Below are positions 41,727 through 61,164 of a DNA stretch of 64,000 nt, one piece after another. The notes beneath the pieces are model-generated. The model had not been told where the DNA came from. It worked only from the letters and a program-made list of their open reading frames with translations, and did no database searches. The position numbers and the translations under genes are program-made. The stretch comes from Thioalkalivibrio sp. AKL19 (lineage in GTDB: Bacteria > Pseudomonadota > Gammaproteobacteria > Ectothiorhodospirales > Ectothiorhodospiraceae), in contig NZ_ATUK01000010.1 of assembly GCF_000420165.1 (NCBI RefSeq), positions 1 through 64,000 of the forward strand. Direction: 5' to 3'. Position 1 is the stretch's first letter; each line of letters opens with the position of its first letter.

Positions 41727-42042
41727 TAGGGAAACACTGATTAATGTACGCGCTCGCGCTCGAGTCGCTTTTGCGTGCGAACAAGGCGCGATGAGTGAAG
41801 TGTAGCCGAGCTACATAAGCGAGCCACAACGCCGGGCGCACGCCCGTTTTCGACAACAACTGGCGGCCGAGCCCTTGCTTTCAAGGGTTTGTGGGGTTGG
41901 CACCCCGGGTTCCCCGATCCTGCGTTGCGCCCCGAAGTCATCAAAAACGGGCGGGTAGAACCACTACCCGCTTCGCGACGCGCCTTGTCTCGGAAAACCT
42001 GGGGTACCAACGCGAGTGTGTACATGGATCAGTGTTTCCCTA
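41727..42042. mobile_element. MITE-like TIR element, copy 1 (between uvrC and pgsA)
   Basis: The 316-bp unit runs from TAGGGAAACACTGATTAATG to ATCAGTGTTTCCCTA. The end inverted repeats cover at least 25 bp (GGGAAACACTGAT, ATGTAC, CTCGCG). It is about 80% identical to copy 2 (58175-58493) over its length. TA (or CTAG) is repeated at both edges, consistent with a target duplication. The uvrC stop codon TAG is formed at one edge. A 94-codon frame inside is shared with copy 2 but differs mainly at amino-acid-changing positions. Confidence 0.8.
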
Positions 42043-57526: not shown

Positions 57527-57542
57527 CTGTATATATAGACAG
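57527..57542 (+). promoter_or_regulatory. LexA (SOS) box
   Basis: CTGTATATATAGACAG is a perfect CTGT-N8-ACAG box, 18 bp before the lexA start codon. It predicts autoregulation of lexA and SOS induction of the genes behind it. Confidence 0.92.
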
Positions 57543-57559: not shown

Positions 57560-58177
57560 GTGTCGCTTACTGAACGCCAGCAGGCCATCCTCGACTACAT
57601 CGCCGAGACCGTCGCCACCCAGGGCACGGCGCCGACCCGCAGCGAGATCGCCCGGGCCTTCGGCTTCCGCTCGCCCTACGCGGCCGAGTGCCACCTGAAG
57701 GCCCTGGAGAAGAAGGGCGCGATCGAGCTGCTGGGCGGCACCTCCCGCGGCATCCGCCTGCCCGGTGCCGCCCGTGGCGCACCGGCCGAACTCCCTCTGG
57801 TCGGGCGCGTCGCCGCCGGCTCGCCGATCCTCGCCACCGAGCATATCGAGCGCCACTACCGGGTCGACGACGCCCTGTTCCGCGGCCGCCCGGACTATCT
57901 CCTGCGCGTACACGGCGAGAGCATGCGCGACGCCGGCATCCTCGACGGCGACCTGCTGGCCGTGCGCCAGACGCCGGAGGCCCGCCCCGGCCAGATCGTG
58001 GTCGCCCGCATCGAGGACGAGGTCACCGTCAAGCGCTTCGCACAGGACGGCCCGAAGGTTCGCCTGCTCCCGGAGAACCCCGACTTCCGCCCCATCGAGA
58101 TCGACCTCGAGCGCCAGGACCTGGCCATCGAGGGCATCGGCGTGGGCGTGCTGCGCGATCTCGAACCCCAGACCTAG
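57560..58177 (+). CDS. lexA: SOS repressor LexA
   Basis: The 205-residue repressor has an N-terminal winged helix ([24 protein letters not shown]) and a C-terminal S24 self-cleaving domain with cleavage site A86-G87, nucleophile S121 (GESMRDAG) and K158 (VTVKRF). Start is GTG 57560. Its stop TAG is created at the edge of the second TIR element. The link to imuA-imuB is the same as in the lexA2 mutagenesis cassette of pseudomonads. Confidence 0.93.
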
Positions 58178-58493
58178 GGAAACACTGACTCATGTACACA
58201 CTCGCGTTGGCACCCCAGTTTTTCCGAGACCAGGCGCGTCGTGCAGCGGGTAGTGGTTCTACCCGCCCGTTTTTGATGGATTCGGGGCGCAACGCAGGAT
58301 CGGGAAACCTGGGGCACCAACCCCACAAGCGATTGAACGACGGGGCTCGGCCGCCCATTGTTGACGAAAACGGGCGCGCGCACGGCGTTGCGGCTCCCTT
58401 GTGCAGAATGACTGCACGGCGGCGGTCACCGCGCCTTGTTCGCACGCAAAAGCGACTCGAGCGCGAGCGTGTACATGAATCAGTGTTTCCCTA
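58175..58493. mobile_element. MITE-like TIR element, copy 2 (between lexA and imuA)
   Basis: The 319-bp unit runs from TAGGGAAACACTGACTCATG to AATCAGTGTTTCCCTA. It lies in the same orientation relative to gene direction as copy 1. Its first three bases are the lexA stop codon and its last base is 4 bp before the imuA ATG. Edges are CTAG and CTAA, so a TA duplication fits both copies. Confidence 0.8.
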
Positions 58494-58497
58494 AGCC

Positions 58498-59130
58498 ATG
58501 GGCGCGCTGGATACCCTGCTCGACCACCCGGCGCTCTGGCGCGGCCGCAGTGCCATCCCGGCCCCAAATGCCCCGGTCTGGCCCAGCGGCCATGCGGAAC
58601 TGGACCGGGCCCTGGGCGGCGGCTGGCCGCGCGGCCAGCTGATCGAACTGCTGGGGGCCCCGTTCGGCTGCGGCGAGACCCGGCTGCTGGTCCCCATGCT
58701 GGCCGCCTGCGGCCGTGACGGCTACTGGATCGCGGTGATCGCGCCCCCGGCCACGCCCTGGCTGCCGGGCTGGCAGACGCTCGGCATCCCGCCGGAACGG
58801 GTGCTACTGATCCGCACCGAGCACGACCGCGACACCCTGTGGGCCGGGGAGCAATGCCTGCGCGACCCGGCCTTTGGCGTGCTGCTCGCCTGGCTGCGCC
58901 GCCCCGTGGAGACGGCCCTGCTGCGCCGGCTGCGCCTGGCCGCGAGCGAAAGCCGGGCCTGCGCCATCCTGTACCGGCCACCGGACGCCGCAACACAGCC
59001 CTCGCCGGCCCACCAGCGACTGCGTTGGCAGTCCGCGGCTTCCGGACTGGAACTGCACTGCCTGAAGGGGGCCGGCCACTGGGCCCGCTCCGGCCACCCC
59101 CTGCGGGTTCCCGAACCGCCGGAGGCCTGA
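58498..59130 (+). CDS. imuA: ImuA, SOS mutagenesis accessory protein
   Basis: The 210-residue RecA-like protein has GHAELDRALGGGWPRGQLIE and a P-loop-like GAPFGCGETRLL, the usual ImuA N-terminus, but the Walker A is altered (GxxxxGET instead of GKT), as in the family. ImuA works with ImuB and DnaE2 in translesion synthesis. It ends 1 bp before the imuB start. No clear ribosome site is seen because the TIR element ends right at the gene. Confidence 0.85.
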   Translation: MGALDTLLDHPALWRGRSAIPAPNAPVWPSGHAELDRALGGGWPRGQLIELLGAPFGCGETRLLVPMLAACGRDGYWIAVIAPPATPWLPGWQTLGIPPERVLLIRTEHDRDTLWAGEQCLRDPAFGVLLAWLRRPVETALLRRLRLAASESRACAILYRPPDAATQPSPAHQRLRWQSAASGLELHCLKGAGHWARSGHPLRVPEPPEA

Positions 59131-59131
59131 G

Positions 59132-60733
59132 GTGGGGCAGCCCGCCCGTCCCTCGCATGCGGCCACGCCCCCGGAGCCGGCGCGACAGCAACTGAGTTTG
59201 CTCCCGGCCGCCGCCACACCCGCGCCTGTATCGGCACCACAGCCACCGGAGACGCGCCTCGCCAGCTCCGGCGCCACCCGGGCGCGGCAGGAACACTGGA
59301 TGGCGATCGACCTGCCGCATCTCGCGCTGGACACCCTGGCCCGGGCGGAGCCGGACCGGGAGCGATTGCAACGCCCCCTGCTGGTGGTGGCATCCGGCGC
59401 CAGCCCCCGGGTGCATGCCGCCAACCGCGCGGCACGCCGCGCGGGCGCACGGCCCGGCATGGCGCTGGGGGATGCCCTGGCAGTGCTGGACACCCCGGAA
59501 CTGGTCGAGCACGACCCCGACGCCCTGCGGGCCCAGCTGGAGATGCTGGCCAGCGTACTGCTGCGGTTCTCCGACCACGTGCATCCGGAACCGGAGGCAC
59601 AGCGCATCCTGGTGGAGGTCGGACGCAGCCGCCGCCTGTTCGGCGGCCTGGAGGCGTTGCGCGCACAGGTACGGGACACCCTGACTGAACTGGGCTTCCA
59701 TCCCCGTATTGGCCTGGCCAGCAGCCCCGCCGCCGCGCGCCTGCTGGCCCGCCTGCGCAACCCCGCGATCGCGGAAGACCCCGAGGCTCTGCGCCTCATC
59801 CTGTCCCCGGTTCCGCTGGAAGCCCTGCCGCTGGCCGCCGCGACCCGCGAGGGCCTGCGCGCCGTGGGCCTGCGCCAGCTGGGCGATCTGCTGCGCCTGT
59901 CACGCCCCGAACTGGCCCGGCGCCACGGACCGGAGTTGCTGGATCTGCTGGACCGCCTGCTGGCCCGGCGCGCGGAGACCCTGCCCCGCTTTGCGCCACC
60001 CCCGGTGCTGGATCTGTCCCTGCGCCTGGAGCACGAGATCCACGCCACGGCGACCCTGGCCTTCCCGCTCAAGCGGCTGCTGCGCCAGGCCGAGGCGCAG
60101 TTGCGCGGCATGAACCGCAGCCTGCAGGGGATGACGCTGGAGCTGGCCCACCGCGAGACGCGCACCCGGCTGACGCTGGAACGCGGGCAGCCGGGCATTC
60201 GCGCCGACGAGTGGCTGCCCCTGTGGCAGACCCGGCTGGATCGCGAGACCCTGCCGGAGGCCGTGATCGGCCTGCGCCTGCGGGCACCCCGCTTGCTGGA
60301 CCCACCGGCCCGGGGCGACAGTCTGCTCGCCGCAGACCCAGCAAGAAGACCACCAGCCGATCAGCTACCCGCCGTGCTGGCTCGCCTGCGCGCCCGGCTG
60401 GGCGAGCAGGCCGTCGCCCGTCTGATCAACCGCCGCACACCGAGACCGGAGGATGCCCAGAGGCCGCGACACGATCTCGCCACCACTCCGGCCCCCACCG
60501 CTCCAACCCCGGGCCAACAGGCCTGCGGAACGGCCCTCTGGCTACAGGGCCCCGAGCCCGCCGCGCCCCCCGACCAGCCCCAATGGCTGGGACGACTGGA
60601 AGACGGCTGGTGGGACCATGGGCAGGATGCGCGCCGCGACTACGCCTGCGCCCGCGACCGCCAGGGCCGCCGGCTCTGGCTGTACCGCTGCCTGCGCAGC
60701 GGCCAGTGGTATCGTCAGGGTTACTGGGGCTGA
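59132..60733 (+). CDS. imuB: ImuB, inactive Y-family polymerase-like protein
   Basis: The 533-residue protein has the Y-polymerase fold (WMAIDLPHLALDTLA near 56-70, ANRAARRAGARPGMALGDA, GRSRRLFGG, GLASSPAAARLLAR) but lacks the catalytic acids, as ImuB proteins do. The C-terminal segment WYRQGYWG region is the ImuB tail that contacts partners. An N-terminal extension of about 55 residues holds RQQLSLLP (18-25), which looks like a beta-clamp binding motif. GTG 59132 is taken as start. No dnaE2 follows in this window. Confidence 0.84.
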   Translation: MGQPARPSHAATPPEPARQQLSLLPAAATPAPVSAPQPPETRLASSGATRARQEHWMAIDLPHLALDTLARAEPDRERLQRPLLVVASGASPRVHAANRAARRAGARPGMALGDALAVLDTPELVEHDPDALRAQLEMLASVLLRFSDHVHPEPEAQRILVEVGRSRRLFGGLEALRAQVRDTLTELGFHPRIGLASSPAAARLLARLRNPAIAEDPEALRLILSPVPLEALPLAAATREGLRAVGLRQLGDLLRLSRPELARRHGPELLDLLDRLLARRAETLPRFAPPPVLDLSLRLEHEIHATATLAFPLKRLLRQAEAQLRGMNRSLQGMTLELAHRETRTRLTLERGQPGIRADEWLPLWQTRLDRETLPEAVIGLRLRAPRLLDPPARGDSLLAADPARRPPADQLPAVLARLRARLGEQAVARLINRRTPRPEDAQRPRHDLATTPAPTAPTPGQQACGTALWLQGPEPAAPPDQPQWLGRLEDGWWDHGQDARRDYACARDRQGRRLWLYRCLRSGQWYRQGYWG

Positions 60734-60747
60734 GGGGGGACGCCGCG

Positions 60748-61164
60748 TCAGCGGTGGTATTCGCCCGCGCGCTCCGGCTGGTACTCGACCTCTTCGATGC
60801 GCACGTGCATCTGCCCCCCGCCCGGGCGCGGCCACTCGATCTCGTCGCCCTCGGACAGGCCCAGCAGGGCACTGCCCACCGGCGCCAGGATCGACAGCGT
60901 GCCACCGCTCTCGTCTACATCGCGCGGGTACACCAGTGTCATCGAGAACTCGTCGCCGGACTCGATCACCCGGAAGCGGACCTTCGAGTTCATCGTCACC
61001 ACCGAACCCGGTACATCATGCGAATCCACGACATCCGCGCGATCCAGTTCGGACTCGAGATCGGCCTTGCCGGGAAAGCTGTCATCCGGCAGCGATTCCA
61101 GCAGCTTGTCCAGGCGCTCCATGTCCGTGGCGGAGACAATGATCTTCGGCTTGTTCACGTTCAC
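60748..61164 (-). CDS. rnk: Nucleoside diphosphate kinase regulator Rnk
   Basis: The 138-residue protein has a short N-terminal helical hairpin and a C-terminal GreA/GreB-like FKBP domain (VTMNSKVRFRVIES, SILAPVGSALLGLSEGDEIEWP). The long coiled coil of Gre factors is missing, which separates Rnk from GreA/B. It is thought to bind RNA polymerase. It is convergent with imuB. Confidence 0.9.
   Translation of the reverse strand: MNVNKPKIIVSATDMERLDKLLESLPDDSFPGKADLESELDRADVVDSHDVPGSVVTMNSKVRFRVIESGDEFSMTLVYPRDVDESGGTLSILAPVGSALLGLSEGDEIEWPRPGGGQMHVRIEEVEYQPERAGEYHR

Follow-up and report, generated by a model that had tools for sequence, protein, structure and literature searches.

ImuB is the clamp-docking hub for DnaE2 in mycobacteria, where its contact with the beta clamp is essential and is made through an internal motif, 352-QLPLWG-357, immediately followed by a RecA-NT motif to which ImuA' binds (PMC10421592, PMC11791113). 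Access of the mutasome to the primer end is known only through this internal motif, as described for mycobacteria (PMC10421592). The proteobacterial ImuB1 of the ImuA-ImuB-DnaE2 mutasome has been described in a lexA-imuA-imuB context, with a Y-family core, an internal clamp site, an ImuB-C end and a separate, SOS-controlled dnaE2 (PMC6511836, PMC12926913), and imuA-imuB cassettes split from dnaE2 have been reported (PMC3919608), including in mycobacteria (PMC6511836). The clamp-binding consensus is QL(S/D)LF, and its LF part alone is able to bind the clamp, according to a review that also describes two informative arrangements in Escherichia coli: Hda, a DnaA homologue, bears its clamp motif on a disordered tail at the N-terminus, ahead of its folded domain, and Pol III alpha has two candidate contacts per polypeptide, one internal and one C-terminal, on a clamp with two clefts (PMC11139829). 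In the open-access literature we found no description of a clamp motif at the N-terminus of ImuB, and no open-access paper on an N-terminal extension of ImuB or on ImuB in Thioalkalivibrio; none of the six mentions of the clamp in PMC12926913 reports such a motif.

The window, a stretch of 64,000 nucleotides from Thioalkalivibrio sp. AKL19, contains a lexA-imuA-imuB cassette whose ImuB shares with ImuB1 the gene context, the Y-family core, an end that is ImuB-C-like by position, the position of the internal clamp site and a separate, putatively SOS-controlled dnaE2, but adds a tail of 55 residues, predicted to be disordered, that bears a clamp-type motif, and its internal site ends in Leu-Leu and lacks the Gln. 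The sole motif described for mycobacterial ImuB in the cited reports is internal and is a full Q motif, whereas here the Q motif is N-terminal. The layout of the tail is that of Hda, which is an unrelated protein and has the hexapeptide QLxLxL instead of QLxLLP, and the presence of two candidate contacts in one polypeptide recalls Pol III alpha, although in ImuB they are N-terminal and internal. The features discussed below are as follows, the last two in coordinates of L003 and the others in those of the window.

57527-57542, forward strand: LexA-type box CTGTATATATAGACAG, by pattern match, 17 nt ahead of lexA and upstream of lexA-imuA-imuB
57560-58177, forward strand: lexA (TIGR00498, 231 bits, cut-off 111; PF00717, PF01726)
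58498-59130, forward strand: imuA (NF033429, 187.7 bits, cut-off 150)
59132-60733, forward strand: imuB, 533 aa, GTG start, from PF00817, its place directly 3' of imuA, orthologues in the genus and a DinB-like AlphaFold2 model
59132-59296, forward strand: N-terminal extension of ImuB, residues 1-55, Pro/Ala-rich and predicted to be disordered, from pLDDT and composition
59189-59206, forward strand: clamp-type motif QLSLLP, residues 20-25, from conservation across the genus loci and match to the clamp consensus
60314-60328, forward strand: internal site GDSLL (residues 395-399), which aligns with the clamp motif of the family; residues 395-400 have pLDDT < 50
60356-60430, forward strand: helix and strand, residues 409-433, at the expected place of a RecA-NT-like motif, from AlphaFold2 secondary structure and the position just after the internal site
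60533-60730, forward strand: mostly-beta C-terminal region, residues 468-533, ImuB-C by position, from the AlphaFold2 model
60748-61164, reverse strand: rnk, convergent, at the end of the cassette (PF14760 and PF01272; NF004396 above cut-off)
L003:5296-8454 (contig 1), reverse strand: dnaE2, 1052 aa (NF004225, error-prone DNA polymerase, 1428 bits, cut-off 939)
L003:8458-8473: LexA-type box CTGT-N8-ACAG directly upstream of dnaE2, by pattern match

LexA-type boxes matched twice in the window against 0.44 expected from shuffles, and with the box at 57527 lexA-imuA-imuB is putatively under the control of LexA. The IMS domain of ImuB was detected by profile search (PF00817, 44.4 bits against a cut-off of 23.2), and the AlphaFold2 model, made with a 40-sequence alignment, has a well-folded core (mean pLDDT 81.8, pTM 0.67 for the protein) that matches Y-family polymerases, the top match being DinB (4r8u; E 6.5e-18, TM-score by target 0.59). 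The segment EVGRSRRLF presumably occupies the place of a SIDE-type motif. In the model, a helix (residues 409-423) and a strand (430-433), RecA-NT-like by position alone, follow the internal site, which is where this motif has been described (PMC11791113), and the beta-rich C-terminal region (468-532 in the model) would correspond to the described ImuB-C (PMC6511836, PMC12926913). ImuB is present in 29 of 30 genomes of the genus (none was found in G033, which is 80% complete), and among its close relatives 25 of 36 loci, with identities of up to 91%, belong to Thioalkalivibrio.

The next gene 3' of imuB is rnk, and so the cassette stops there without dnaE2, as the original prediction had noted. 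That prediction had left dnaE2 as either missing or elsewhere in the genome; the second half of this statement was borne out, and absence is rejected by the dnaE2 ORF on a separate contig behind its own LexA-type box. The genome encodes two DnaE-type polymerases, a 1200-residue frame (DnaE1) and the 1052-residue DnaE2. Of the 30 genus genomes, 29 contain a close dnaE2 match, in some cases a partial one, and in the five where dnaE2 and imuB share a contig (G013, G014, G016, G017 and G025) the two genes lie at least 198 kb apart. The DnaE2 of this genome has PLPLF, resembling the xLPLF given as typical of gammaproteobacteria (PMC3919608). DnaE1 (L004, G000:C13) reads SLGVVDLFGD where the E. coli protein reads IGQADMFGV, so that its clamp motif seemingly lacks the Gln; the clamp motif is mostly kept in DnaE1 proteins (PMC3919608).

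The extension of ImuB looks to be translated. Its GTG start lies 1 nt past the imuA stop codon and is preceded by GGAGG, and in 12 further loci (L006-L017) an imuB ATG lies 1-2 nt past the imuA stop. Across L005-L017 the length of the extension varies between 46 and 56 residues with the frame intact throughout, and the residue that follows it in the window is the conserved W56. No orthologue starting near residue 55 was seen among the 29 genus loci, the exception being L032, whose extension is reduced to 20 residues. Residues 1-50 have pLDDT < 50 in the AlphaFold2 model.

Within this tail, the original prediction had pointed to RQQLSLLP near residue 20 as clamp-like, and it is indeed present at residues 18-25: QLSLL agrees with QLSLF at four of five positions, Leu replacing Phe, and is thus a relaxed match to the consensus QL(S/D)LF (PMC11139829). 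Q[LFPA][SATG]L[LI] is kept in 26 of the 29 genus ImuB loci in a tail that is otherwise mostly variable, although it is not uniformly free, since columns 39, 40, 43 and 49 are fairly conserved too. By column, Q is found in 26/29 loci, L in 22/29, L again at the fourth position in 28/29, L or I at the fifth in 28/29 and P in 26/29, giving entropies over the six columns of 0.64, 1.20, 2.23, 0.22, 1.05 and 0.57 bits, against 2.26-2.67 bits in the six columns before the motif and 2.16-2.43 bits in the three after it. The variable third position coincides with the variable S/D position of the clamp consensus. Phe never occurs at the fifth position, which is taken by Leu or Ile, and the second is Pro or Ala in five loci. 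Codons within the motif vary synonymously; the Gln, for example, is encoded by CAA in 10 loci and by CAG in 16. When the 28 genus loci to which an extension could be assigned are scanned with the broader pattern Q..[LIM]([LFIMW]|.[LFIMW]), 25 match against 1.13 expected from shuffles, but these loci are related and the 25 matches do not amount to 25 independent cases. L026, which has no start assigned by our rule, was excluded from this count, and its open frame shows QLALLP. Natural variants of the tail exist: L018 (NLQLLP) and L019 (ALQLLP) have lost the Gln, and the short extension of L032 carries no motif.

Hda of the same genome (TIGR03420, 237.7 bits, cut-off 194.8) begins MSAGQGREAAPQRQLPLDLRLRD from a start Met that we chose, and this tail contains RQLPLDL. 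Given that the E. coli Hda motif sits in the disordered N-terminus (PMC11139829), an N-terminal QLxL tail would already dock on the clamp in this organism.

In two overlapping sets of genomes from the class, 93 of 281 and 121 of 369 contained an ImuB-like match. Our survey covered 151 loci, with the genus and a few close relatives included, of which 148 were kept (L141, L142 and L150 were dropped for coverage or score) and grouped into 92 clusters at 55% identity; L107-L131 repeat genomes already included and were left out. Many of these ImuBs start right at the core (MLW...), and others have an extension; where imuA was not detected, the start was taken as the first ATG within 90 residues, which is a guess, so that a few extensions, for example that of L164, are possibly wrong. 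Outside the genus the broader pattern, which was chosen after viewing the sequences, occurs in 12 of 45 extended loci (2.82 expected; 0/5000 shuffles as high) and in 9 of 33 extended cluster representatives (2.22 expected; 0/5000 shuffles as high), and with imuA-defined starts alone it occurs in 7 of 27 representatives (1.92 expected; 6/5000 shuffles). When the anchor was varied over 20 residues, Q was the most enriched (9 versus 2.21, 0/2000) and T mildly so (7 versus 2.83, 34/2000). The hexapeptide form was enriched (6 versus 0.92, 0/2000), the strict Q..L[FL] more weakly (3 versus 0.82, 86/2000), the reversed pattern not at all (1 versus 2.24), and in the C-terminal linker used as a control the pattern was found in 0 of 87 (0.97 expected). 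The forms that the N-terminal pattern takes in unrelated lineages include QQSLF, QVSLPL, QQVLPF and QASLL. In the order of G236, ImuB matches occur in 4 of 11 genomes, the fourth being weak and dropped, and the three full proteins, 44-58% identical to the first, carry QQSLF, QQALF and QVSLPL. The near-matches QHTLPGL (L034/L067), QHSLPGL (L036), QLQLDGVF (L083) and RLTLLP (L106) were not counted. On the best tree the N-terminal motif (18 of 107 rows) changes 11 times, at least 4 of them on well-supported branches, a number of origins that is loose because it comes from a single quick tree in which 36 of 104 forks are open. Viral contigs gave three pattern matches and no relative, and the five plasmid records, the best of which covered 52% of the query, were unused in the analysis. 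Overall, a clamp-type motif at the N-terminus of ImuB, conserved across the genus and recurrent in other lineages, is supported by these comparisons.

In two further genera of this family the N-terminal sequence in place of QLSLLP is QH[TS]LPGL (L034, L036, L067) or QL[AV]LPGI (L035, L037), possibly variants of the same docking element. The related ImuBs L093 and L165 start MTLPLFPEL, with LPLF and no Gln at the very start of the protein.

It had further been proposed that the internal motif is degraded and that the clamp contact has moved to the N-terminus. ARGDSLLAADP is present in ImuB as claimed and GDSLL, at residues 395-399, has no Gln; however, Gln at the first position is rare in any case (absent in 79 of 89 representatives and present in 10), L398 is invariant in the genus (29/29) and residue 399 is Leu in 16 loci and Phe in 13, the three positions before L398 being variable. 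The genus is split here, and an intact internal motif is seen on alignment only in part: the other half has xxGLF, xxELF or xxDLF in all 13 of its loci, whereas the window's half has Leu-Leu in 16 of 16; in the wider set the site mostly reads xx[DS]L[FL]. A true relocation, in which the N-terminal motif replaced an internal one that is now a dead remnant, would fit the xxxLL of the window's half, the lack of an internal Gln in all 11 representatives with the N-terminal motif and the scarcity among them of Asp or Glu at the third position (4/11 versus 31/48 extension-less ImuBs), but this last difference is a trend (Fisher p = 0.10), and several observations speak against relocation. The other half of the genus keeps LF in 13/13 loci and yet has the N-terminal motif in 12/13; internal LF is equally frequent in carriers (7/11) and extension-less ImuBs (28/48; p = 1.0); Leu-Leu and other non-LF ends are found in extension-less ImuBs too; and L398 is invariant. 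(The carrier comparison left out L038, L039 and L135-L140, and six representatives without an assigned start were set aside.) Relocation as a correlation between the N-terminal motif and internal loss thus gave no significant link, for [DE]LF either (p = 0.17), and a tree-based pair test had four supported pairs only and no power. The proposed move is accordingly unsupported, and we regard relocation as unlikely. The contact has probably been added, and an added N-terminal contact alongside an internal one that is weakened yet constrained is a fair reading of the sequences. Because LF alone can bind the clamp (PMC11139829), a weak internal contact is plausible, and we lean towards the internal site still contributing to clamp binding.

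The remaining explanations bear on the tail itself. The QLxLLP segment might resemble a clamp motif and yet bind another partner, such as ImuA, DnaE2, RecA or a protease adaptor; the Pro that follows the motif in 26/29 loci lies outside the clamp consensus and the fifth position is Leu or Ile, as this would allow, but its positions are fixed and variable in the same order as those of QL(S/D)LF, comparable motifs recur in unrelated lineages and Hda of the same genome shows the same layout, so that we consider such a partner improbable. That the tail has no function, its biased composition matching by chance or through shared ancestry, draws on the fact that related sequences share residues by descent and on the lack of the pattern in 24 of the 33 extended representatives elsewhere; it is made very improbable by codons that drift synonymously while the residues stay and the neighbouring columns vary, and by the shuffle and anchor controls. 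A start-codon artefact, with the true ImuB beginning near residue 57, where the window has an ATG and 18/29 loci have Met, can be given almost no weight, as Leu or Ile stands in this column in 11/29 loci, the upstream start just after imuA is conserved in L006-L017 and preceded in the window by GGAGG, and the frame survives the length changes of the extension. We consider it very likely that the N-terminal motif of ImuB binds the beta clamp.

On the reading of an added contact, SOS induction would act through the LexA boxes ahead of lexA-imuA-imuB and of the separate dnaE2. Residues 1-55 of ImuB would form a flexible tether that places QLSLLP some 30 residues ahead of the folded core and docks in the clamp's hydrophobic peptide cleft, the Gln and the Leu at position 2 occupying subsite II and the Leu at position 4 and the Leu or Ile at position 5 occupying subsite I. 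The internal L[LF], beside the ImuA-binding region, would remain a weaker contact, either at the second cleft that a dimeric clamp offers or in alternation with the tail, and with the tail motif ImuB would be able to stay on the clamp whatever happens around the internal site. We think this mechanism as a whole somewhat more probable than otherwise. More speculatively, gammaproteobacterial ImuBs might repeatedly gain an N-terminal Q-type clamp tether besides the internal site, and could engage the two clefts of a single clamp, or keep hold of it with ImuA occupying the internal region, thus excluding the replicase or keeping DnaE2 tethered. A second, mobile contact, if true, predicts which residues of ImuB matter, whether one or two clamp clefts are taken per ImuB and competition with the replicase, and surveys of clamp motifs limited to the region behind the little finger can misscore such ImuBs as weak binders.

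The cassette also carries an element of about 320 bp with inverted ends of about 31 bp between lexA and imuA (window 58176-58497). A second copy lies at 41727-42041 on the reverse strand, and the genome holds 40 or more strong matches (40 of 90 candidates scored). The element occupies the same lexA-imuA site in L107 and L108, and in L109-L111 the spacing there is just 7-19 nt. Its features suggest a non-autonomous (MITE-like) element within an SOS operon.
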